The notes under the pieces are model-generated. The model searched no databases. It saw only the letters and a list, made by a program, of their open reading frames with translations, and was not told the origin of the DNA. From Collybiopsis luxurians FD-317 M1 (Eukaryota > Basidiomycota > Agaricomycetes > Agaricales > Omphalotaceae): a stretch of DNA of 64,000 nt. This document shows, in pieces, positions 3,323 through 40,356 of this stretch (positions within the stretch are counted from its first letter, which is position 1; each line of letters opens with the position of its first letter). Location: positions 432,716 through 496,715 of the forward strand of contig KN834776.1 of assembly GCA_000827265.1 (NCBI GenBank), given 5' to 3'. Both the position numbers and the translations under genes were made by a program.

Positions 3323-3923
3323 ATGATGGATCAACAAAACTTCGAGTCAATTTCTACGGCTTCGGGAGCCAGTATGAGCCCGGGCTTCCTTCATAATGCG
3401 CACAACTTTCAGATGATAGGATCAAGTTTTACAAATATTGGGGGAAATCAGATCACTCATTATGGTCCAAGTGAGTGATTTATTGTATGGAGTCTTTGCC
3501 TTCACATCACGTATCCATAGGCGTACGTTCTCAACCTCCCCCTAATTCAACTTCCGGATAAATTATTGTTTCCAGGTGGACTATTATATTAAACGTCCCT
3601 TGCGTCTTTATGTTCAAGAGCTGCGAGACTACTTCATTGTAGGGTCCCGCCAAGAAGGGAGTCCATGGGAAAGGGTTGATGTTGTCCGGAAGTTCGATAA
3701 CGAGGAGGAGCGGGAGGCATTTGAAACTTGCCTGAAGAAAACAAGGTGTGATACGGCCTTGTGACCGCAATGAATATACTCATTCAATCATCATCCGTGG
3801 CCTCGAGTTGGGCACCATTTAGTATACAACCACTCCGTAAACTCAATATCCATGGATCTCCATGTTTGGCAGTATCCTCTGCTCGTCAGTCCTCATTCAT
3901 TACCGACAAATTTTATCAACGAG
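3323..3923 (+). CDS. Upstream exons, probably the 5' part of the single-codon-exon gene
   Basis: ATG at 3323 opens MMDQQNFES, followed by a segment (HNAHNF, SFTNIGGN) that resembles the leader found before effector domains in many Agaricomycete proteins; that resemblance is from memory and unverified. The exon ends at 3470 in phase 1. The only way I find to keep the frame is a two-base exon, GC at 3521-3522, between introns 3471-3520 and 3523-3575. Exon 3576-3745 then reads VDYYIKRPLRLYV and a charged stretch. An exon from 3808 or 3823 to 3923 follows (IQPLRKLNIHG). From 3923 a weak donor (GTCCTA) and an acceptor at 3966 would join in frame to the ATG at 3969. That last link is the least certain. 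If it fails, this is a small separate gene ending at 3764. Confidence 0.45.
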
Positions 3924-3968
3924 GTCCTAAAATATAATTGTTTTTAAGCTGTCTACACACTGCAAGAA

Positions 3969-6900
3969 ATGCTAGAAGGGATATTTCCTCTTGACCAAGT
4001 GCAAGAAAATGTGGTATGATATTTTCAGACATTGACACATTAAAGGATGCTCAGAAAACATCAAGTATCTGAAAGTTACAGTAAGACCTTTATTACATTA
4101 CGGCGTTAGTGGTGCAGTACACTCATATGCAAATGAATAGGCCTTTTTCCTCGGTAATGACAGAATTTATCCTGGATGTTGGGACAGTTACGAGCTTTGG
4201 AGCGGAGAGGGAAAATACAAAAATCTAAGACTGTTTGATCAGAGTGGGAATTTTGCTATAGATCCAGAAGCCCTCAGATTGTTGGGATTGTTGTATGAAA
4301 ATTTTCAGGAATTCAAGGTTTGCGGATGATTTTTTAATTGGACATAGACTGAACTTGAAGAATCAATGTAGAAACATGGGGAAGTGCAGTTCTATCAGAA
4401 TGCTGAGGAATATCACACAGAGTGGGTTCAGAAGGAGAAAGGTAGGTTTATATGTCATCTGCTATTTAGAAAACAAAGTAGTAAATATCAAAAGGTAAAA
4501 ATGGGCTAACTCATTTAACAATGATGCACATCAAATCTAAAGAGGTAGAATTCTTCATACTAGATAGATGAATAAAAACACTAATCAATTCTCCATCTGA
4601 TATCTTCAAAAGCTAGTGAGTGATATACATTCTTTCCTAGGTATCAAATGACTGGATACAACGAGTCTCGTCATCAGAATGTAAGTATTAGCTTCTGTTA
4701 TGGGAATTAGGGACCCCTCACTTATTGAAAAGGCGACAATTCCACTGTTCCGTCTTCCATAGCAAGTAAGTTCTTATTTCTGGAAAATTTGTAATTGCTT
4801 ATGCCAGAAATTTCTTGTCCCTTAGATTGTTAGTTCATCTTTTTCCATATGCCCTTCAAATTGATGTCCAATCCTTTCATTGGAAATTTCTCATAGAAAG
4901 TATGTCCCTTGTTCCTCATGATTAATATCTCACTCCATTGGGAATTTTTCTTTCCCATAGGAGGTTAGTTTTTCTGTTTTCATATATCTTAGATGTTATT
5001 GAAATCTGCTTATACCATCGGGAATTTCATTTTTCCTCAGCGGGTGAGTTCCTCATTGACTATTGACTATTTCCCCTAAGAATTTCAAATCTTTATTCCA
5101 ATTATTGAAAAATCTCTGTGTCTGGTAGTGGGTGAGTTCTTTACCTCACACTTCCCAGGTGCTTCATTCAACTTGTTTAATTCGGCCTTCCAATAGTTTG
5201 TGAGTTCTTCATCTCTCATGTTTTCTACAAATTACTATCTTAAATTGGAAATTTCCCTGCCCATAGTGGGTGAGCACCAAAGCATCTGTGTTTCCTAGAA
5301 ATTACACCCTTTTGAAAACTCCCCTTCCCATAGTTTGTGAGTTTTCCATTCCCCACCCTTTAACTCCATATCTGCTTGATGCTTACTGTATTGGAACTTA
5401 CCCCTCTCATAGCCAGTGAGTGATTCTACTCTCATGTTCCCCAGATTCAATGGCCCCTTACATGATTGGTATTTTTCTCTGCCTTCAGTGGGTAAGTTTA
5501 TTACCAGTCTCCTGCAACTTAAAGTCCCCTTATTTTGTCAAAAAATATTTTCCTGTAGCCAGTAAGTTTTATCTCCTGTATCTCTTACAAATCCCCTTGC
5601 TTCATCAAAGATTTTCTTTTCAATAGTTTGTTAGTCTTGGGCATCTCCTGTGATTCTATGGCCTCTCACTCCTTGGACATCTTCTCTTCTTATAGCCAGT
5701 AAGTTCTTCAGCTTTGGTTCAGTTTGAATATGGATATACTCACTTGATTGGGAATTGCACTCTAATTAAAATCCCCAATTTTCTATAGGATGTGAGCTCT
5801 TCACCCCTATGTCCTCTAGATTCATTGAATGTTAATGGAAATTTCTTTCCCTACAGTTTGTAAGTTTGATTTATTCCCCTAGTGTGCCTTGGAAACTTGA
5901 AAGCTATGTCTACTCACTCCATTGCTAATTTCCCTTTTCCATAGCGAGTGCGTTCTTCATATGTTCTACGTCCCCTGGAAATCATGTTCACTCTGTCGGA
6001 AATTTTCCCTTCCTAATGACACATAGAGAGTAAGTTTTGCATTTTGCATGTCCATAAAAATTGACACTAATTTGTATTATCCCACCACCTCGTACTAGAG
6101 TGTGAGTTTTTGATGCCCCATGTTCCTAATAATCGATGCCCTCTCACTCCATTTAATTTTTCCCGATCTATAGATTGTGAGTTTTTCTCATATTGTCTGT
6201 TTCCTGCAAATCAAAGTCCTTCATGGCTCACCCTTTTAAAAACTTTACTTTCCCATAGAGAGTGAGTTTTAGAACTTCCAGGTTTCCTGCAATTCAATGT
6301 CTGCTCACCACATTTACTATTCACAATTTCTCCTTCAATCCGACAGAACGTGAGTTTTCCGTCTCTGATGTCTCTGGAGTTTATTCACCGCATTTGAAAT
6401 TTGCCCTTCTTTTCAAAGGATGTAAGTTCTTCATCTCCCATAGAAGATTATGTTCACTCACTTCATTGGAAACTTCGTTTGGTAGATTGTAAGTTCCTCA
6501 CCTCCTATTGATGTCCTACCAATTCAGCACTCCCCAACTAGCCTGTAAGTCATTCAATGGCATTCCCCGATGTAAATATTACTCACAAATGTTAAATTTG
6601 CTTTCATAGTATGTGAAGTGTTATTTTTTTCATATGTATCCCTATTGATAGCTGCTGACAGCTCTCTTTTATTTTATAGCTTGTCAGTTGTCAGTTTATT
6701 TTTCCTCACCATTTTGAATTCCAAAAACTTTGCCATTTTAGGAGGTAAGCGATCTTTCATATTCTATAAGGACGCATACATACAGCCTCAACATTAATTT
6801 CCTTTATTATGAAGCTTGTAAGTTTGCCTCTTCCCCTCCCCCCCCCCCCCCCCNNNNNNNNNNNNNNNNNNNNNNNNNNNNNNNNNNNNNNNNNNNNNNN

Positions 6901-7533
6901 NNNNNNNNNNNNNNNNNNNNNNNNNNNNNNNNNNNNNNNNNNNNNNNNNNNNNNNNNNNNNNNNNNNNNNNNNNNNNNNNNNNNNNNNNNNNNNNNNNNN
7001 NNNNNNNNNNNNNNNNNNNNNNNNNNNNNNNNNNNNNNNNNNNNNNNNNNNNNNNNNNNNNNNNNNNNNNNNNNNNNNNNNNNNNNNNNNNNNNNNNNNN
7101 NNNNNNNNATTATGAAGCTTGTAAGTTTGCCTCTTCCCCTCCCCCCCCCCCGCGCTTCCTTGACATCTTTATCAACGCAATCAAATCCCTCTTACTTTAG
7201 TTTGTAAGCTATCTACTCCATTTTTTTCTTCCTTTGAATTTATCACTCACTCGGAATGGAATCTTTACTCTTCCAGAATGTAAGCTCTCGGGCTTTTATA
7301 ATTCCTTGATAAGTTGACCCATCTGGTCTTTTATCTAATATGAGCCGGTGTGTATCCATTTTTCATGTCCTGTATTTCTGAGACGCTCATCCCCTGGCTG
7401 TTGTATTCTTATCATCCATGACCGCATATGTGCCACCATTCAGCAAAATCACCCCCATGCCGGTACTCCCAAGCGCTCATTCAGGAATTCCTTGAACGGG
7501 ACTTTCAACTTAGGAGTGTTCAATTTGGAATAG
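3969..7533 (+). CDS. Gene with about 34 consecutive single-codon exons
   Basis: I do not recognise the protein. Ordinary exons come first, all joining in frame: 3969-4013 (MLEGIFPLDQ), 4066-4080 (YLKVT), 4141-4317 (FFLGNDRIYPG to YENFQEFK), 4372-4441 (KHGEVQFYQN) and 4495-4544 (KNGLTHLTMM to KSKE). Then comes the array 4613-7347, in which every exon is exactly three bases, and finally exon 7444-7533 (QNHPHAGTPKRS to GVFNLE, TAG). Read through, the protein is about 182 residues from the ATG at 3969, or about 323 if the upstream exons belong to it. No stop codon falls among the three-base exons, and the last exon is in the required phase 0. No signal peptide or membrane segment is evident. The alternative is that 4545-7443 is removed as one 2.9-kb unit; this also preserves the frame. 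Confidence 0.65.
4613..7347 (+). other. Array of 3-nt exons between related introns
   Basis: Each unit has the form AG|NNN|GT. The three-base exons and their start positions are CTA 4613, AAT 4678, CAA 4763, ATT 4826, AAA 4897, GAG 4961, CGG 5041, TGG 5129, TTT 5197, TGG 5267, TTT 5334, CCA 5413, TGG 5489, CCA 5559, TTT 5627, CCA 5696, GAT 5789, TTT 5857, CGA 5945, AGA 6027, AGT 6099, ATT 6174, AGA 6259, AAC 6347, GAT 6419, ATT 6486, CCT 6542, TAT 6610, CTT 6680, GAG 6742, CTT 6815 (again at 7118 after the gap), TTT 7201, AAT 7277 and CCG 7345. Translated in blocks: LNQIKER, WFWFPWPFPDF, RRSIRND, IPYLEL, FNP. The introns are 53-96 nt, mostly 60-85. Confidence 0.85.
6854..7108. other. Assembly gap (N run), probably a collapsed overlap
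   Basis: 255 undetermined bases. The sequence left of the gap (from 6806: ATTATGAAGCTTGTAAGTTT, then a C-rich run) is repeated immediately right of it (from 7109). Two contig ends that both terminate in the same poly-C run would give this picture, so the two CTT exons at 6815 and 7118 are probably one and little or nothing is missing. Confidence 0.7.
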
Positions 7534-7932
7534 CTTTCGAGGGAATATATATCTGAGATCATGGGTAGACAATACAAGTCCGGGGAAGGCTGGAGTATGT
7601 CCCTAGATTTTTTTTGACCCACAAACTATCTGACTTTCCAGCAGGGTGTAACAAGTGGGCTGTAGTCTAAATCATATTTTTTGGTTCGTCGAGAACTCTT
7701 TCTCCGTACATATGGGGGCCCCGCTTCGGTGGAATCTAGATTCTGAGACCAATTTGAAAACTCGCAGTGCGGATGATCGTTTGTTTCAAATTCATTTCAC
7801 CGCTGCGTGCATATTCTTTTAGGTTGTGAAAAATGTAGCGAAATTTTTTAACGACACTCCTTTTTATCTCTTTTCAATTATTTTACCACCACAGTGAAAA
7901 CTAACAGAGATGTAGATACAGGGTTTGTAATA
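7534..7932. other. Intergenic, convergent gene ends
   Basis: This lies between the stop of the array gene (+) and the stop of the G-alpha-like gene (-). I see no exon here, only AT-rich sequence expected of two 3' untranslated regions. Confidence 0.5.
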
Positions 7933-10537
7933 TTATACCAATCCACACTCCCTTAGATGACTATCAAGTAAAATATCCTGCACAGTATTGAGAAGATCTG
8001 TTGATAAATGATTCTTAAGTCAGCAGTGTGGTAAAGATATTGGAGGGAAAGGACAAACATTGGAGGAACATAATGTCATCACCTGACTCAGAAACATAAA
8101 ATGGGTATATCTGCTTTATCACTGGACCTTCATTGAGGCTTATGAATCGGTGAAGAAGGTATTCACGGGCAGCGTCGTAGTTGTCCTTCCCAGTATAGTC
8201 AGGGAAGTAATCGCCTAAGAAGAGTGGTTAGGATAAGGTATGAAAGTCTTCGCAAGGATATGACAGTACGTAGCGGGGCGCGAGGTAATTTTTCCATCAA
8301 AACATCCGCTTCATTCATGAAGAGGATCTAGCGTATCAAGGAATTCAATATGAATAAGCAAAACGAAGCATTTAAATGTTAACTCACTATCGGGGTTTTT
8401 GGGAACCATTGTGAGTTACATATGTGTCCGAATACATTCAATGCCTCCTGCGTTCGATTCTGGGTACATGGTCATCTGAGATGGGTTTTAAGCTAATCAT
8501 TACCGTCTGGATCAAAAACATACCACACTCCCATCCTCATGCAACACTTGATCGTATTCGGAAATGTTTACCAAAAACATAAATGCGGTAACATTCTCGA
8601 AAATTTGAACCCATTTCCTTCGCTCTAATTGTTGGGTTCCTATGAGAAGAAACTTATAGGTGAGCTCATCGACCTTCCAAGAAAACTCTGTAATTGTGGA
8701 GGTTTTGCCATCAGTGTTGTTCGGCGTCATGGAATTTTTTCTGCATAAGAAAATATCCTGAAGACTGGGCAAATAGTCATGGCTGGAAACACGATCGAGG
8801 GAGTCCATGAAATAAATAGAGGTACGATCTATTGGAAGTTCCCGGGGGCTGCGGATAGCTTCCTTAACTACTGGGTCTTTCCAAAGACAGGAAACAGCAT
8901 GTATGATGTTTTGAGACAAAAGTATGTCCTCAATCTGTGGAGGGAGGGACAATAAGGTGGCCAAGTGAACACGGTTTCTTTGATCGACGTTGAGCTCTGC
9001 TCGATGTAGGATGTTCAGAATGATGCTGTAAGTTCCCCAGTAACAGGTTAGATACATAAAGGGCAGATTTACAACTGAGTAAGACGTACATCATAGTTCG
9101 TACCACAATAATCAAGATTTGCTTCTTGTATAATACCCTCTGTTGTTCATGGTGTTTCCCTTTCATATACCAATCAAGGACCATCATTTTATTCAATGCA
9201 GATGCCTGAAAATGGGGGTTGATTAGTCCTTTATCAGGTAGATATTATAAACGTGAAAGCGCAGCTTACACTGCCTGATGCTCCAGCTCCCATGGCGAGT
9301 ACGCGAACTTCGTTCTTCAGCATTGTACGAGCCTTTTTAAGCTGAATCTCAATGGCATTATTTCCTGTATTGATACAAGTGTAAACACAAGTATCTAGTA
9401 GCTCAATTTGTAGGCGAGACTCACGAGCAGCCAAGGTAATATCCTCCCCAGATCCTTTGGGAACTAGCGAGCGAATTGTTTTCCACCTGTGCTTGCGCAG
9501 CCTTGTATCGACGCCCAAGGGCGGGGAATCAGGATATGTTGAAAGATCAGCAACAGCTGACCGTGTAGCCTTTAGAATGTCGTCTGTGAGTGACAACGGG
9601 TGGCTTGAGGACGATGGTTCCCATATATTTGTATTAAATCCGAAGGGGGAATCAAGAATCCCATTCAACTCTGAAACTGCCGAAATATCCTGGACGTGAT
9701 CCAGTTTTTGTAAGAGAGCACGAAATACGAGTTCCACTGGTAAAAAAACCTGTGGCAATTCGATTTTGACTCGAATGTCGCTCCTGATAGAAGGGTAAAT
9801 TTCCATAACGAACGCGATGATGCCTTGCTCCATTAATATTCTTGAAAATATCGAGTCGAGGCTCAAGGATATCGTCAGGCTCAGGAATAGCATGAACGGT
9901 GTGTAAAAGGTACACCATGGTGCAGCATATGGAACACGAGCTTCATAGTCCTTCAAGCCTGCCATGCGAAATGCAGGGACTTGCATTTCGTCTTCCCTTG
10001 CACTGGGTGGGAGAATCAAGATATGCCATAGCTGAGGCGGTGAAAAGGTAGTGTCAACGCACCTTCGCAAACATAGGAAAATCTCCTCGAGAATATCGCG
10101 AATATCAGACTCCCGCTGGTCTAGCAGCACCAAAGCAAGATCATCGAACTCCATCCCTCCAATCTTCGCCATGATAAGCCGAAAAGCTCGCGTCCGGATA
10201 GATTGACGGTATACAGGCCTGTGGTAAGCTCGTTAGAAAATGGACACACAAGAAATGTGAAAGAATGGCTTTACCGGCATAACTCCAATAGATCACTATA
10301 GAGAGGCCGCAAGGAAGAGGACTCGACGATTCTGCTGGAAAGGCTTTCGATCTGAGCCAGTCTTCTGCGAATGATTATGGCATCCACTCCGCTAATCACA
10401 ACATTGCCCACTCGTTTGAGTCCTCTTCCGGTCAGATAGCCCAATCCTGGAACCGTAGACTCTGACGTGAAGGTTCCAGTGCTGGTAAAACTACTGCTGG
10501 TCTCTGTTTCATGGAGGTCGTTTCTGCTCGTTAGCAT
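7933..10537 (-). CDS. G-alpha-like protein with long N-terminal extension, nucleotide-binding motifs lost
   Basis: Eight exons join in phase (10537-10275, 10218-9270, 9205-9090, 9025-8524, 8459-8388, 8327-8270, 8214-8083, 7997-7933) to give 718 residues; the classic alpha subunit has about 350. The first ~400 residues match nothing I know. The rest follows a heterotrimeric G-protein alpha subunit closely: an NEVRVLAMGAGASGS stretch at the P-loop, SIYFMDSLDRV before switch I, LERRKWVQIFENVTA after switch II, NRTQEALNVF and ICNSQWFPKT, FPDYTGKDNYDAA, and a tail ending LRECGLV. The P-loop lysine is Ser, DVGGQ reads LIGTQ, NKxD reads NEAD, and TCAT reads YVSES. The fold and receptor-type C-terminus are kept while GTP binding is probably lost, so this is a pseudo-GTPase by inference. 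All exons are open, which argues against a dead gene. Confidence 0.85.
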
Positions 10538-13594: not shown

Positions 13595-14262
13595 TTAGAA
13601 TCTTTGCCAAAGTACTTTACCATTCCAGCTCTTGATAAACGATCCTCTATCGCTTCCTTTCCCAACAGCCATCGCAGACAATGGCATATGCTCGTCAATC
13701 TTCAGCCGTATATCTTCTTTTAGCTTGCGCTCAATGGTGAACTCGAGCTTGTCTTTGTTGGCAGTCAGCTGGTTATCCAAGCACAAAACCTCAACGTCAG
13801 TCGGAAGACCCAACTCTTCCGCTGCCGCTCGAAAAAGGGTATTAGCCTTTGTATTAATCTCATGAGCGGCTTTCGTGTCATACACCTGGACTTTGGCGTC
13901 CAGGGAGGAATTTGTAGGAGGGTTAAACATGTTCAATGCTTCTGCTGGGATATGATGGGTGCCTGGCCGAACATTGGCTTTGCGGTTTGGTCGCTCATCG
14001 AAATAGCCAAGTAGGACAACTTTTCCCTTCTATCGGTATGTCAACAGAATGCTATAAAATGCCTGTCATCGGATCACTTACCGCAGGCTCCGGAGCGTAT
14101 GAGATTGGCACTTTCACCTAAAGAAAATCAATCGACATAGTCAGTGTAAAAAAGACATATCAACAAAACCCTCACTCCTCCTGGGGACGTGCGCCCTCCT
14201 GCAGGTATCGCTAACGCAGCAGATACGAAACTAAAAAGAATGCATATTGAAGTCCAACGCAT
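13595..14262 (-). CDS. Small secreted protein, paralogue 1
   Basis: ATG at 14262 opens a signal peptide (MRWTSICILFSFVSAALA). Two introns follow at the same places as in the paralogue starting at 16313: after the codons for TSPGG and after the short exon VKVPISYAPEPA. The last exon carries KGKVVLLGYFDERPN, the shared HHIPAEALNMF, NTLFRAAAEELGLP, IDEHMPLSAMAVGKG and SFIKSWNGK, ending at 13595. Length is about 160 residues. The family is not one I can name. The pair differ at roughly half of the positions, so the duplication is old. The protein is probably exported to the cell surface or medium. Confidence 0.75.
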
Positions 14263-15642: not shown

Positions 15643-16313
15643 TTAAGCCTTATAAAGCGTTTGACCACTTTTATCCTTAATCCACGATCCTTTCTCATTT
15701 CCCTTCCCCATAGCCAGCCCAGTCAATGGCATCTGCGTATCAATCTTGAGTGGCGTCTCCTTATCCATCTTCCCAGTAATCGTGAATTTAACCCTGTCCG
15801 CACTAGCGACAATCTGCAGGTTACCCGTAAACAAGACCTGAACATCGGCGGGAAGACCGAGTTTCTTTGCTGCCGCTCTCATGAGGGTGTTGGCTTTGTT
15901 ATTGGGTTCGGTGACGGCTTGGGGGTCGTAAGTCGCGACCGACGCGTCTAACGAGAAATTGACCGCGGGTGGGAACGTGTTCAACGCTTCAGCAGGGAGG
16001 TGATGTTTATCAGACTTGACATTCGTGTCAGCGTTCGTCGGTCCGTCGACCTTGCCGAGCAAGATACATTTTCGCTGAGAGTTAAAAGGATTAGTGAGTG
16101 ATTCTGAATGCTTGATTGCTATCGTCATACTCACTTCAGGTCCCGGAGCTTTCGCTGCAGGTACTTTAGGCTAGAGTAATAGACGTCGTACGAAGCCCAA
16201 AGAGAGATCAATATGATTAAACTCACTCCCCCTGGAGATACATTCCCTGATATAGGAGATGCCAATGCCGCAGATGCGAGACCGAGTAGAATATAAATCG
16301 AAGTGAAGCGCAT
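15643..16313 (-). CDS. Small secreted protein, paralogue 2
   Basis: ATG at 16313 opens the signal peptide MRFTSIYILLGLASAALA, with cleavage expected after ALA. Exon 1 ends after NVSPGG. Exon 2 is PKVPAAKAPGPE. Exon 3 reads RKCILLGKVDGPTN, KHHLPAEALNTFPP, NTLMRAAAKKLGLPADVQ, VKFTITGKMDKETP, MPLTGLAMGKG and GSWIKDKSGQTLYKA, with a stop at 15643. Both introns are GT-AG and all phases are 0. Length is about 170 residues. No known domain is recognised. Confidence 0.8.
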
Positions 16314-30123: not shown

Positions 30124-31334
30124 CGTATCTATGATTCCAATATGAAATCTATGAACCCTCCTCAAATTCGAGATCCCGTTAAGCCTGACCGTCTACCGTG
30201 ACATTTCTTCTACTCTTGTCGTTCCGTGCACACGTGTGTAATTGCGTCGCCAAAGGGAGAGCATGCAAGTCCTCGAGGTCAAACATTAAACCCTGACTTT
30301 CGAATCTCGAAGATTGACGGTGATGAGTATACTGCTAATTTTCGCAGTTGGGATCCGAGGTAAGACTGATTCGAAACCTCTTTTTCTCTACTTCCGCTAT
30401 CTCCTGCTGCATCAAGCTTGACTTTTCACTCACGCTTTCGTATCCGACAGTTTGAATTCCGGCTGAGACGCGCAAAGTTCTGCAGCGCTTTCACGTACTT
30501 TGGGCGACTCTCCTCGCTGACTTTCTGTCGCATTTTCAACCTATGTCGTCAAGAAAAAATTTTTGTCGCGCATTCCGTGTGTGTGTCAGGTTTTGATACT
30601 ATGAGGTGTGCATATGTATATGTTCCGGAACAGAGGACAGGCTTCAATATCTCCACGTTAGCACACTCAGCGTCACATTAGTACCTTACCCCTCTCCACG
30701 CCCGCAACCTACGCACACACGTTCGACCCAATGGTGAGATACATTATATCACTTTAACTTCATTCTGGTTACATTTCTACGCCTCAAGGCGCAGTCAAGG
30801 CCGGCAACATACGTCCAGCCAGAACCACAACAAGATTGCGATACATTTCTCTCCATGTTTCCTGATTCCGATTCCCTGTTACTCGGTTTGCTTTGTGGGT
30901 CCCCATACCATATACACTACATTGCTCCGAAATCCTTTCCGCTGAAAATCCACGGCAGCCATTTGGTCGACCTTAGTACCTCGGATATTCAACATATCTT
31001 AGGCTAGTCTAGCTTAGCCAGCCGCACAATCGGTGTCCCTCACTAACAAAGGTTTCCCTTCCCGTAAGGCCTAAAACCCGAAACGGAATAGAACACATAT
31101 TTTCTTGCGGGTGCTGTTAATCTCCCAAAGTGTCATTGTCGACAAATAAAGTATGTTTCTCTCTTCTGTTTTTTTAAGTTTTTATTTTCCTTTGTTTTTT
31201 TTACGCGACTTTAACGAGTCTTACCTGGCACGTCGTCTGGCTCATGCATGGGTTCTCTGAACCGATAAATACCTCGCCTATGACAACCCCCCTCCTTTGC
31301 CACCCAGTTCCTGTAGTCATCTATCGCAAGAGAC
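30124..31334. other. Intergenic stretch upstream of the UbiA-type gene
   Basis: Cytosine/thymine-rich with no supported exon. A possible acceptor (TTCCTGTAG at about 31317) just before the ATG at 31335 leaves open an additional 5' exon of the UbiA-type gene. Confidence 0.35.
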
Positions 31335-32312
31335 ATGCTCATATCAGTCTTCACCCTTCTCACTCGCGAGATCAACATCTTTCTAGGATTCTCTTGGAGA
31401 GACTGGTCCGCCACCCTCATTCCAGGCTCTCTATTCTCCATGGGCGCGATGCGGACCCTTCCGCACGCCATCGACATATTCCGTCGCTACCTCTATCTCA
31501 TCCTCTGGCTTACGGCGTTTATCTATTTTTTTGATCTCTCCAATCAAATCACTGGTGTCGACGAGGATCGCATCAACAAACCCGATCGCCCTCTTCCCTC
31601 TGGAAAGGTCACCCTCGCCGGCGCAAAGAAACGCTGGGTTGTTTCCCTTCTCGCCTTCCTTGCCATCACGCTCTACCACCCAATCCTCCTTACCGAAACT
31701 ATCAGCTGGATCATCGTCGTGTACTTCCTCGAGGCGACATCTTTTGGCGATCACTGGTTTGTCAAAAGCTGTCTAGCGATGGGCGCCGGTACTTGGGCGT
31801 TGCTTCGCGGTTCCTGGAAAGCAATTGCACCCTTGACGCCTCTAGCTGAACGTTACGTTCTCGCAATGTCATTGTGGACAGGCTTGTTAACGCATATTCA
31901 AGACTTGAGGGATATCAAAGGTGACGCTGCGATTGGACGTCAGACGTTGCCTATAGCCATCGGTGACTCACAAAGTCGGTGGGTTATAACATTAAGCCTC
32001 ATGCCGGTGTCCCTGGTCGGACTTTGGATAGGCGGCATACTGGCCCTTGCACCCGTTCCAATCGTTGGAGCCCATGTGTTTCTAGGGTACCGTATTATAC
32101 AGAAAAGAGGGGCATTGTATGACCACAAGACGTATATGGTAAGTTGGTCTACCTTACTCGTTCAATCCCACTCAAGTTTCGAACCCTAGTTTTACACATA
32201 CCTCTTCTGCCTTATCTTGGCGCTTACCGCATTCGACGGGATTGAATGGGGTACCAGTTTCTCGCTGGTCTTTGACCATATCAAGCGTTCTTCCGTCCTC
32301 GAGGCTATTTAA
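31335..32312 (+). CDS. UbiA-family membrane enzyme (prenyltransferase or UbiA-type terpene cyclase)
   Basis: Exon 31335-32138 and exon 32190-32312 join in phase 0 to 308 residues, the usual length of the family. Both Asp-rich motifs are present: NQITGVDEDRINKPDRPLPS (NxxxDxxxDxxNKPxRP) in loop 2-3 and DLRDIKGDAAIGRQTLP (DxxDxxGD) in loop 6-7. These bind the Mg-diphosphate of an isoprenyl donor. About eight membrane helices surround them. In basidiomycetes such proteins either transfer a prenyl group to an acceptor or cyclise farnesyl diphosphate; sequence alone does not decide. A P450, a reductase-like protein and a zinc-finger regulator lie within 11 kb downstream. Confidence 0.85.
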
Positions 32313-39598: not shown

Positions 39599-40356
39599 TT
39601 ACACACTTACTCTCTTTCCACAATACTCATCGAGCTCCGGGATTGCTCTCCTTGAAAAATCGAAATTCAAATATCCTGATACAATCGTTCCCCACAGCCA
39701 CCCTGCTGCTGCAGTCGCAAAGCCTGCTCTCCAAAGAACATATCCACCATAATTGACATGCCTGGCGAATCTGAATAATCCCTTAGTGTACGGTCGTCCC
39801 CTGTCCCTTACATCTTTTTTAAACCTCAATCTCTGCATTTCCGAAATCCACTCAAACCCCATTCCGAAAATGTACAACCCAATCCCAACCAGAGTCTGAA
39901 TCGGTAATCGCGTCTCATTGAAGGCGACGGAAGCATAGCTCAACACTGACGTTGCAGTGTTGATGAACAAGAGTGTATTTGCGCCATTATAGAACGTATT
40001 CAATGCCCCTGCTAGTCCTGCTCCAGCAGGAGAAATTGGCTCCCGAGTGATAGTACTCACCCAGTAGCTTTGCTTGACAAACGAACCTACTGCCATCCCA
40101 AGAGGATTGTCCGTTGAGGCGACAGTCCAAGGCTAGTGCCCAGAACATATACAGGGCGTCCGGTAGGTGGGATGGGTACTCCTCCGAGAGCGTGAATCAG
40201 AGGAGTACCTAGGGCTCTGGAAGAGAGGATAGCGTATTGAATAGGGAGGTCAAGAGCGCGAAGGAGGATAAAAAGACCTCGAGAAATGGGAGTGGACCGG
40301 TAAGAACCACGTTCGAACACGACAGCTTTGCCTTCAGGTTTCGAATTGGACATCAA
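39599..40356 (-). CDS. DUF1295 / steroid 5-alpha-reductase-like membrane protein, one frameshift
   Basis: The N-terminal half (MMSNSKPEGKAVVFERGS, LPIQYAILSSRALGTPL, TGRPVYVLGTSLGLSPQRT) ends at a stop at 40087. The C-terminal half (MAVGSFVKQSYWVSTI, TRLPIQTLVGIGLYIFGMG, RLRFKKDVRDRGRPYTKG, FRFARHVNYGGYVLWRAGF) continues in another frame from 40096 to 39599. In related proteins the two run on without a break. The join falls in TTGGGATGG; one extra G would restore continuity. The C-terminal part holds the NADPH-binding region of the DUF1295 family. There are several membrane helices. It is either a base error in a short G run or a recent loss of function. Confidence 0.7.

Follow-up and report, generated by a model that had tools for sequence, protein, structure and literature searches.

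A gene family of Collybiopsis luxurians in which dozens of consecutive codons are predicted to be separate exons

An array of triplets between predicted introns

Analysis of a 64,000-nucleotide stretch of the basidiomycete Collybiopsis luxurians FD-317 M1 (contig KN834776.1, positions 432,716 to 496,715; hereafter the window) revealed, on its forward strand, an array of units of the form AG-NNN-GT, in which a 3′ splice site and a 5′ splice site are predicted to be separated by a single triplet. With a probability of about 0.82, the array is the fast-evolving C-terminal coding segment of a gene, each codon of which is predicted to be a separate exon of three nucleotides (nt). The anatomy of the array is certain. 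A string scan of positions 4440-7560 found 44 AG-NNN-GT strings, of which 35 form one chain (4613-7347, triplet starts from 4613 to 7345) and nine are overlapping decoys. The introns between the units are 53-96 nt long, the sole exception being one of 300 nt, which holds a run of 255 N at 6854-7108. This assembly gap is flanked on both sides by the same 43 bases, with a C run at the end, and by a CTT unit on either side (6815 and 7118); because these 43 bases are shared across the gap, the two CTT units are probably one unit doubled in a failed gap join, which reduces the chain to 34. A first-pass annotation made from the same stretch had described 34 units in this spacing; the regular chain was found again, and the count is 35, or 34 with the probable duplicate merged. 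Each of the 35 triplets reads as a sense codon, and all sit in phase 0, as had been claimed. The claim that the spacing lies beyond chance also holds, since 33 AG-Nk-GT pairs were counted at k=3 between 4545 and 7443, compared with at most four at any of the remaining spacings up to k=15 (k=0 included) and three at k=3 on the opposite strand.

The window locus belongs to a gene family of at least 26 loci. A search of the assembly (64.3 Mb in 200 contigs) gave 27 matches at 26 places, two of the matches falling within the window gene itself, on exon 4 (4141-4317) and exon 5; many of the relatives of exon 4 at 25 other places in the genome stand in tandem on contigs C21, C23, C61 and C12. The 26 regions were compared under p numbers, the window locus being p01, and assembly gaps cut into nine of them. 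At least four AG-NNN-GT junctions are present at 24 of the 26 loci, with two in p17 and one in p23. When 20 loci were scanned in a simple way for chains behind the conserved exon, 19 had at least four units on the sense strand, the longest chains being those of p14 (62 units), p06 (42), p21 (38), and p04 and p08 (30 each), and antisense chains had at most two. Genome-wide, a pattern of two units in a row matched 366 times, compared with 16 matches for a control pattern. Two further one-codon arrays lie outside the 26 loci, at C61:86856-87441 and C153:5515-5749, and copies of the intron repeat outside these loci were also seen at C190:52-395 and C94:140470.

The predicted exons of the arrays are nearly all three bases long. 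A parser with free exon length, whose weight matrices had been trained on introns of 50-100 nt adjoining 3-nt units and which gave exon length no score, returned 471 exons of 3 nt, seven of 1 nt, one of 2 nt and none of 4 nt, in addition to two of 5 nt, nine of 6 nt, three of 9 nt and longer stretches where no sites were found. A spacing histogram, which makes no use of splice-site weight matrices, counted 482 pairs at k=3 in the downstream regions of the 26 loci and 1-13 at each of the other spacings between k=0 and k=24. On the opposite strand of these regions there were 6-34 pairs per k, nine of them at k=3, and Markov simulations gave about six. Odd lengths can sum to whole codons, as in p02 and p03, where exons of 1 and 5 nt occur together.

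The triplets as codons

The composition of the triplets argues strongly that they are codons. The parsed set of 464 triplets, which includes no array from p07 (cut by a gap) or p23 (one junction), contains a single stop codon, compared with 30.4 expected from position-specific base composition. In a looser collection, one of 575 triplets is a stop versus 40.2 expected, and TAA and TGA together are absent versus 19.4 expected. Since TAG looks like an acceptor site, its count may be too low, a bias of which TAA and TGA are free. Relative to base composition, Trp is 3.8-fold, Asp 2.5-fold, Phe 2.1-fold and Cys 0.14-fold represented. Such a bias towards Trp, Phe and Asp is reminiscent of acidic activation domains, which is a lead and not evidence of function. 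In 18 of 24 arrays, and by eye in three more (p06, p24 and p25), the first unit encodes Leu, Ile, Met or Val. At six loci the array ends, as judged by eye, in variants of a D/E-F/L-F-N/D-P motif, namely LELFNP in the window, LDFFDP in p06, SDFFNP in p07, FDLFP in p12, PDFFNP in p13 and YLDLFN in p14; the motif is absent in other loci, e.g., p15, p16 and p18. Conservation of the end codons was scored against intron identity for the p06/p14 pair, in which identity of the introns at the shared end codons is 60-67% and thus does not exceed that of intron pairs taken at random (mean 69%).

The same counts bear on the alternative that the array is one long intron of about 2.9 kilobases (kb) with many usable splice sites, exon 6 being joined directly to the terminal exon. 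Direct joining would keep the frame, since phase 0 is both the phase in which exon 6 ends and, in 15 of 16 loci, the best open frame of the terminal exon, and zero-length AG-GT sites, which are typical of stepwise intron removal, are found in p02, p03, p06, p07, p12 and p13. Discarded triplets, however, would not avoid stop codons (one in 575 versus 40.2 expected), and neither the enrichment of Trp, Asp and Phe nor the exact length of 3 nt is expected of them. The long intron is considered quite improbable, although joining of exon 6 to the terminal exon may yield a minor isoform.

The sites as predicted splice sites

The sequences bounding the triplets resemble functional splice sites. Among 487 introns, position +3 is a purine in 93%, position +4 is A in 91% and position +6 is T in 85%, and G at position -3 was found once in 428 introns. 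Among introns selected for a length of 50-100 nt, the 5-95% range is 58-81 nt, and such narrow lengths fit recognition across introns. In the tandem paralogues p02 and p03, the donors differ at only 2 of 162 bases, compared with 123 of 1606 for the introns (Fisher p 0.0006). This contrast, in which the donors are what stays and the variation at the sites is what a spliceosome tolerates, speaks against a satellite-like tandem repeat undergoing neutral decay or serving a role at the DNA level, with AG-NNN-GT as an unspliced consensus. The units are plainly repeats, up to 94-96% alike in some arrays, and they are CpG-depleted in the manner of methylated repeats, as a satellite would be; but their triplets avoid stops, the flanking exons are in frame, and the intron consensus finds at least 125 of its at least 143 matches at the 26 gene loci. 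A satellite of this kind is the most improbable of the explanations weighed here.

Zero-length AG-GT sites lie within two of the arrays (p02 and p03), and at four other loci (p06, p07, p12 and p13) they follow the last codon. At the array units themselves, the 3′ and 5′ splice sites are three bases apart. Splicing as one-codon exons is the only explanation found that would account for all of the observations. The array introns may be recognised and removed one by one from the 5′ end: the upstream exon would be joined to NNN, and the following GT would then serve as the next 5′ splice site, in a ratchet-point-like manner. Sequential removal would solve the steric problem because the two sites of one unit are never used together, and the zero-length AG-GT sites in the same genes fit such a ratchet.

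Exons around the array

Upstream of the array, the joined exons from 3323 to 4544, as placed here, form a 258-codon open frame that reaches the array in phase 0. All of these exons lie on the forward strand. Exon 1 (3323-3470) starts with MMDQQNF, contains FLHNAHNFQMIGSSFTNIGGNQ and has the same structure in 20 aligned loci. It is followed by a putative 2-nt exon GC (3521-3522), which keeps the frame and yields Ser (A-GC), and by exon 2 (3576-3745, VDYYIKRPL...KKT). Exon 2b (3808-3884, SWAPFSIQPLRKLNIHGSPCLAVSSA) has a similar stretch in the published models P0003 and P0005. Exon 3 (3949-4013, PVYTLQEMLEGIFPLDQVQENV) precedes a predicted 15-nt exon (4066-4080, YLKVT), for which similar residues are present in P0001, P0003, P0004 and P0005 and lacking in P0002. 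Exon 4 (4141-4317, AFFLGNDRIYPG...) is conserved in the family and open in 26 of 26 loci, and is followed by exon 5 (4372-4441, KHGEVQFYQNAEEYHTEWVQKEK). Exon 6 (4495-4544, GKNGLTHLTMMHIKSKE) ends in phase 0, which bears out the open upstream exon that had been annotated at this position. The gene as first read, a series of one-codon exons, has otherwise to be extended: it also contains the 2-nt and 15-nt exons and is a member of a family.

The gene appears to depend on the 2-nt exon upstream of the array. If exon 1 of the window gene is joined straight to exon 2, a stop is reached after five codons; two bases between AG and GT preserve the frame, the residue gained being Ser, Arg or Asn. The 2-nt exon is predicted in common at 22 loci, 20 of 26 by pattern and, by eye, p01 (3521-3522) and p03; for p10, the pattern misplaced the end of the second intron, and the 2-nt exon is nevertheless at the shared position. 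The predicted residue is present in published models, as Arg in P0001 and P0004 and as Ser in P0003, while P0012 has Ser where Arg is predicted and P0005 has a longer insert there.

The proposed terminal exon (7444-7533, forward strand), encoding QNHPHAGTPKRSFRNSLNGTFNLGVFNLE before a stop codon, is the least certain exon. In 15 of the 16 loci for which an exon after the array was picked, its longest open frame is in phase 0, the exception being the window itself, where 29 codons are open in phase 0 and 36 in phase 2. The 29-codon last exon of the first-pass annotation is accordingly open as described, but not firmly placed. Taken with the family, the stop depletion, the splice sites of p02/p03 and the 2-nt exon, these in-frame terminal exons argue for the serial one-codon exons in phase 0 that had been proposed. 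The terminal exons of p02, p03 and p09 contain an acidic repeat such as ADMDLDEADVDLDEADMDLDGAD. That of p16, as read from the sequence, has a basic AKKRK stretch, which is again a lead and not evidence of function.

The predicted one-codon exons of the window array, all on the forward strand, begin with CTA (Leu, 4613-4615), this first unit being hydrophobic in most paralogues, and continue with AAT (Asn, 4678-4680), CAA (Gln, 4763-4765), ATT (Ile, 4826-4828), AAA (Lys, 4897-4899), GAG (Glu, 4961-4963) and CGG (Arg, 5041-5043). They are followed by TGG (Trp, 5129-5131), TTT (Phe, 5197-5199), TGG (Trp, 5267-5269), TTT (Phe, 5334-5336), CCA (Pro, 5413-5415), TGG (Trp, 5489-5491), CCA (Pro, 5559-5561), TTT (Phe, 5627-5629) and CCA (Pro, 5696-5698). 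The next units are GAT (Asp, 5789-5791), TTT (Phe, 5857-5859), CGA (Arg, 5945-5947), AGA (Arg, 6027-6029), AGT (Ser, 6099-6101), ATT (Ile, 6174-6176), AGA (Arg, 6259-6261), AAC (Asn, 6347-6349), GAT (Asp, 6419-6421), ATT (Ile, 6486-6488) and CCT (Pro, 6542-6544). TAT (Tyr, 6610-6612) has a weak donor, GTGAAG, and CTT (Leu, 6680-6682) a weaker one, GTCAGT. After GAG (Glu, 6742-6744) come CTT (Leu, 6815-6817) to the left of the assembly gap (6854-7108, 255 N, with the 43 identical flanking bases) and the CTT to its right (7118-7120), which is probably the same unit as that at 6815. The array closes with TTT (Phe, 7201-7203), AAT (Asn, 7277-7279) and CCG (Pro, 7345-7347), the last being the end of the D/E-F/L-F-N-P motif of the six loci.

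Protein relatives of the family

A search for protein relatives, which picks up only sequences with shared short words, gave 19 proteins, 13 of them from C. luxurians and three from Gymnopus androsaceus JB14; one, P0019, contains the reading of locus p05. In Pfam, no match was found for the window protein in its first reconstruction (without exon 2b, the 15-nt exon and the 2-nt exon), and 15 family members gave weak matches only, to one or two members each, the best with an expectation value (E) of 0.008 to an EF-hand model. A sequence search of the PDB found no family and one sequence at E 0.065. Two AlphaFold models of the conserved part, made from published relatives, had a mean predicted local distance difference test score (pLDDT) of 36.6 and 58.3 and were not used as evidence; Foldseek with the latter model returned weak kinase-like matches only (best E 0.004, TM-score 0.26) and none at E of 0.001 or below. 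A scan of viral contigs found no relative of the family.

Selection and rate of change

Exon 4 has a median ratio of non-synonymous to synonymous substitution rates (dN/dS) of 0.27 (106 usable of 253 pairs), and low values were also found among ten close pairs for p15/p16 (0.14) and p17/p23 (0.39). Codon exons differ more than introns in nine of nine paralogue pairs: in p02/p03 at 13 of 85 bases versus 7.7% for the introns (Fisher p 0.02), in p15/p16 at 6 of 9 versus 17%, in p19/p22 at 9 of 12 versus 10%, and in p11/p13 at 12 of 18 versus 11%. The changes are non-synonymous in five of six changed codons in p02/p03, five of five in p02/p09 and nine of ten in p03/p09. Hypermutation aimed at the triplets was considered and rejected, as the p02/p03 codons differ at only 15% of bases. 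From these comparisons we conclude that the array would be a hypervariable, fast-evolving segment able to change codon by codon. The peptide blocks KERWFWFPWP and NDIPYLELFNP, which had been suggested as probes for homologues with fewer introns, were seen by eye in none of the listed paralogue arrays and in none of the 19 published proteins, because the segment differs between paralogues and the models omit it.

Contrary observations and possible silencing

Several observations weigh against one-codon splicing as set out above. Splicing of the array is a prediction from the genome sequence, and none of the six published models that reach exon 6 holds the codon series: P0001, P0006, P0007 and P0008 run into the intron after exon 6 and then stop, and P0002 and P0005 jump into the array after exon 6, one intron body (VSSSSPM.PGNQ) being read as protein. 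A TAG unit lies inside the 62-unit array of p14. Donors are not always better kept than introns, the contrast being weaker in p12/p13 (11 of 48 versus 165 of 528) and p24/p25 (7 of 42 versus 119 of 404), and the motif CTNAY, present in 355 of 487 introns at a median of 28 nt before the 3′ site, is in modest excess over the 257 found after shuffling. The starts of the terminal exons in the 16 loci were picked by eye. Among the ten close pairs, dN/dS of exon 4 is mostly 0.6-0.85 and once 2.0 (p15/p18), and the fast change of the codons is calculated from few codons per pair, with a unit pairing that depends on the alignment. CpG dinucleotides are depleted to 0.10 of expectation in the introns and 0.18 in exon 4 of the family, which suggests long-term methylation of the family and perhaps silencing.

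The CpG depletion is local: the two 2-kb bins of the gene and array (4001-8000) have 0.24 and 0.63 of the expected CpG, whereas the values for the remaining 30 bins are 0.73-1.23. Methylation of repeats is known in mushrooms. The third position of the triplets, which precedes a G, is C in only 7 of 575, and methylation would be expected to remove C at this place without a change of amino acid. In part of its life cycle the fungus may keep the family silent. A further explanation is that the loci are largely silent relics of a once functional family, now methylated and decaying. The CpG depletion and the TAG in the longest array would fit decay, as would the few junctions of p05, p17 and p23 (6, 2 and 1), but exon 4 is without a stop in 26 of 26 loci at a median dN/dS of 0.27, and no stop is present among the units listed for p11, p13, p15, p16, p18 and p19, whose introns are the most similar, though these units are few. 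Largely silent relics are regarded as improbable.

The intron repeats and their origin

The introns of the arrays form a repeat family. Mean intron identity within an array is 94-96% in p15, p16 and p18 and 67-69% in p01, p21 and p26, compared with the 69% of random intron pairs drawn from all arrays. The triplets do not follow the introns. Where introns of one array are at least 97% identical, 16% of the flanking triplets are equal versus 16.2% for random pairs of the same arrays (50 non-independent pairs); at 94-97% identity, 8.9% are equal versus 19.5%, and of the triplets between two intron pairs that are at least 93% identical, 9 of 45 are equal. Near-identical introns beside unrelated codons suggest that introns were multiplied or homogenised within arrays without their codons, and a simple tandem duplication leaves this combination unexplained. 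Between arrays, 19% of 42 triplets flanking introns at least 97% identical are equal versus 5.3% at random. Adjacent codons are equal in 48 of 462 cases versus 31.7 in shuffles, a number as high being reached in 4 of 2000 shuffles, and this excess suggests that some units were duplicated whole. The intron consensus has at least 143 matches in the genome, at least 125 of them at the 26 gene loci by hand count; of 18 matches outside these loci, 12 lie in the two further arrays. A dispersed introner was rejected as a candidate, the intron family being nearly confined to the family loci, as was the idea that each triplet is a duplicated target site, since neighbours are equal in only 48 of 462 cases.

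Two routes to such an array have to be compared. An introner-like element might have inserted introns singly between the codons of an ordinary exon, favouring sites three bases from an intron. Flanking triplets that are no more alike than random beside introns at least 97% identical (16% versus 16.2%) are as insertion predicts, and so are the 9 of 45 equal triplets at the 93% threshold and the exons of two or three unsplit codons that some paralogues keep. Against insertion stand the near confinement of the intron family to these loci, the excess of adjacent equal codons and the recurrence of some codon blocks (by eye), both as duplication predicts, and the 19% of 42 between-array triplets equal versus 5.3%, as common descent of whole units predicts; moreover, no mechanism is known to us by which inserted introns would respect the codon phase. 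Insertion is judged unlikely, though with a substantial chance, and recombination or gene conversion combined with selection is favoured over it by about two to one. Introns of immune genes under balancing selection are likewise homogenised while selection keeps differences.

As each unit consists of a single phase-0 codon, recombination between the intron repeats, or skipping of units, would add, remove or exchange single amino acids without a frameshift. Diversifying selection would keep the codons different while the introns are homogenised. Somewhat short of even odds, we propose that this is a codon-cassette gene, in which recombination in the intron repeats, copying of introns only, and possibly splice skipping edit a protein residue by residue with the frame intact. 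About two dozen such genes would form a repertoire, with a logic comparable to that of immune or self/non-self diversity systems, and the fungal spliceosome would splice their transcripts as many as about sixty times in succession, at sites three bases from each other.

Comparison with known systems and significance

Among the papers listed in a literature search, none is on a gene with consecutive one-codon exons. The micro-exon genes of Schistosoma have many small exons of one phase and form a fast-evolving multigene family. By sequence, the arrays share the marks of micro-exon genes, having consecutive predicted exons of a few bases at canonical sites, with lengths divisible by three and a single phase. 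Bicycle genes of aphids have internal exons larger than one codon. They too are a fast-evolving family with many small exons, and their internal exons are nearly all in phase 2 (PMC9168663). In contrast, the array exons are exactly one codon long and in phase 0, their introns are a repeat family, and the named relatives among the 19 proteins belong to C. luxurians and G. androsaceus, which sets the family apart from bicycle genes.

Single exons of this size have been described elsewhere. A 1-nt exon of CYP621A in Fusarium cytochrome P450 genes, with read support (PMC12940212), and a 1-nt exon of APC11 in Arabidopsis (PMC4674806) have transcript or cDNA support, and lipS of Dactylellina has two 3-nt exons (PMC5639578); non-canonical splicing has been reviewed (PMC13149111). 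These exons resemble the array units in having one to three bases at canonical splice sites in a fungus or a plant. They differ in that there are one or two tiny exons per gene, whereas dozens are predicted here in series and throughout a family. Recursive splicing at ratchet points of Drosophila uses a 3′ site beside a 5′ site in turn (PMC8605326); a use in turn is predicted here as well, and zero-length AG-GT sites also occur in the family. Ratchet points normally leave nothing in the message, whereas each step in the array would leave one codon, and the introns are short.

Introner-like elements of fungi are described as near-identical introns at many positions in different genes (PMC4457414). 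Unlike these elements, which are spread over genes, the array introns occur almost only in one family and in tandem; with at least 125 of at least 143 matches at the 26 loci, they do not form near-identical introns of many unrelated genes. The HYP effectors of nematodes have a frame-keeping hypervariable segment between conserved parts (PMC11228951); their variable domain is a single exon with motif repeats, unlike the one-codon exons here.

If the prediction is true, these genes would be among the most finely cut known, with an exon of limiting size repeated in series. They would directly test the ability of a spliceosome to use 3′ and 5′ sites three bases apart dozens of times per transcript, and would show in nature single codons that recombine as units and on which evolution can act one at a time. 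They also pose a puzzle of intron multiplication, near-identical introns lying between unrelated codons. As the published models are without the codon series, similar genes may be overlooked elsewhere.

Other genes in the window

Scans of the window with Rfam and for tRNA were empty. On the reverse strand, two similar small proteins (by eye), probably a tandem pair, are encoded at 13595-14029, without a Pfam match, and at 15643-16170. Pfam identified an exon of a G-protein alpha subunit (8512-9090, reverse strand; PF00503, E 8e-33), a UbiA prenyltransferase (31317-32189, forward strand), a fragment of a cytochrome P450 (38579-39085, forward strand) and a DUF1295 protein (39599-40132, reverse strand).

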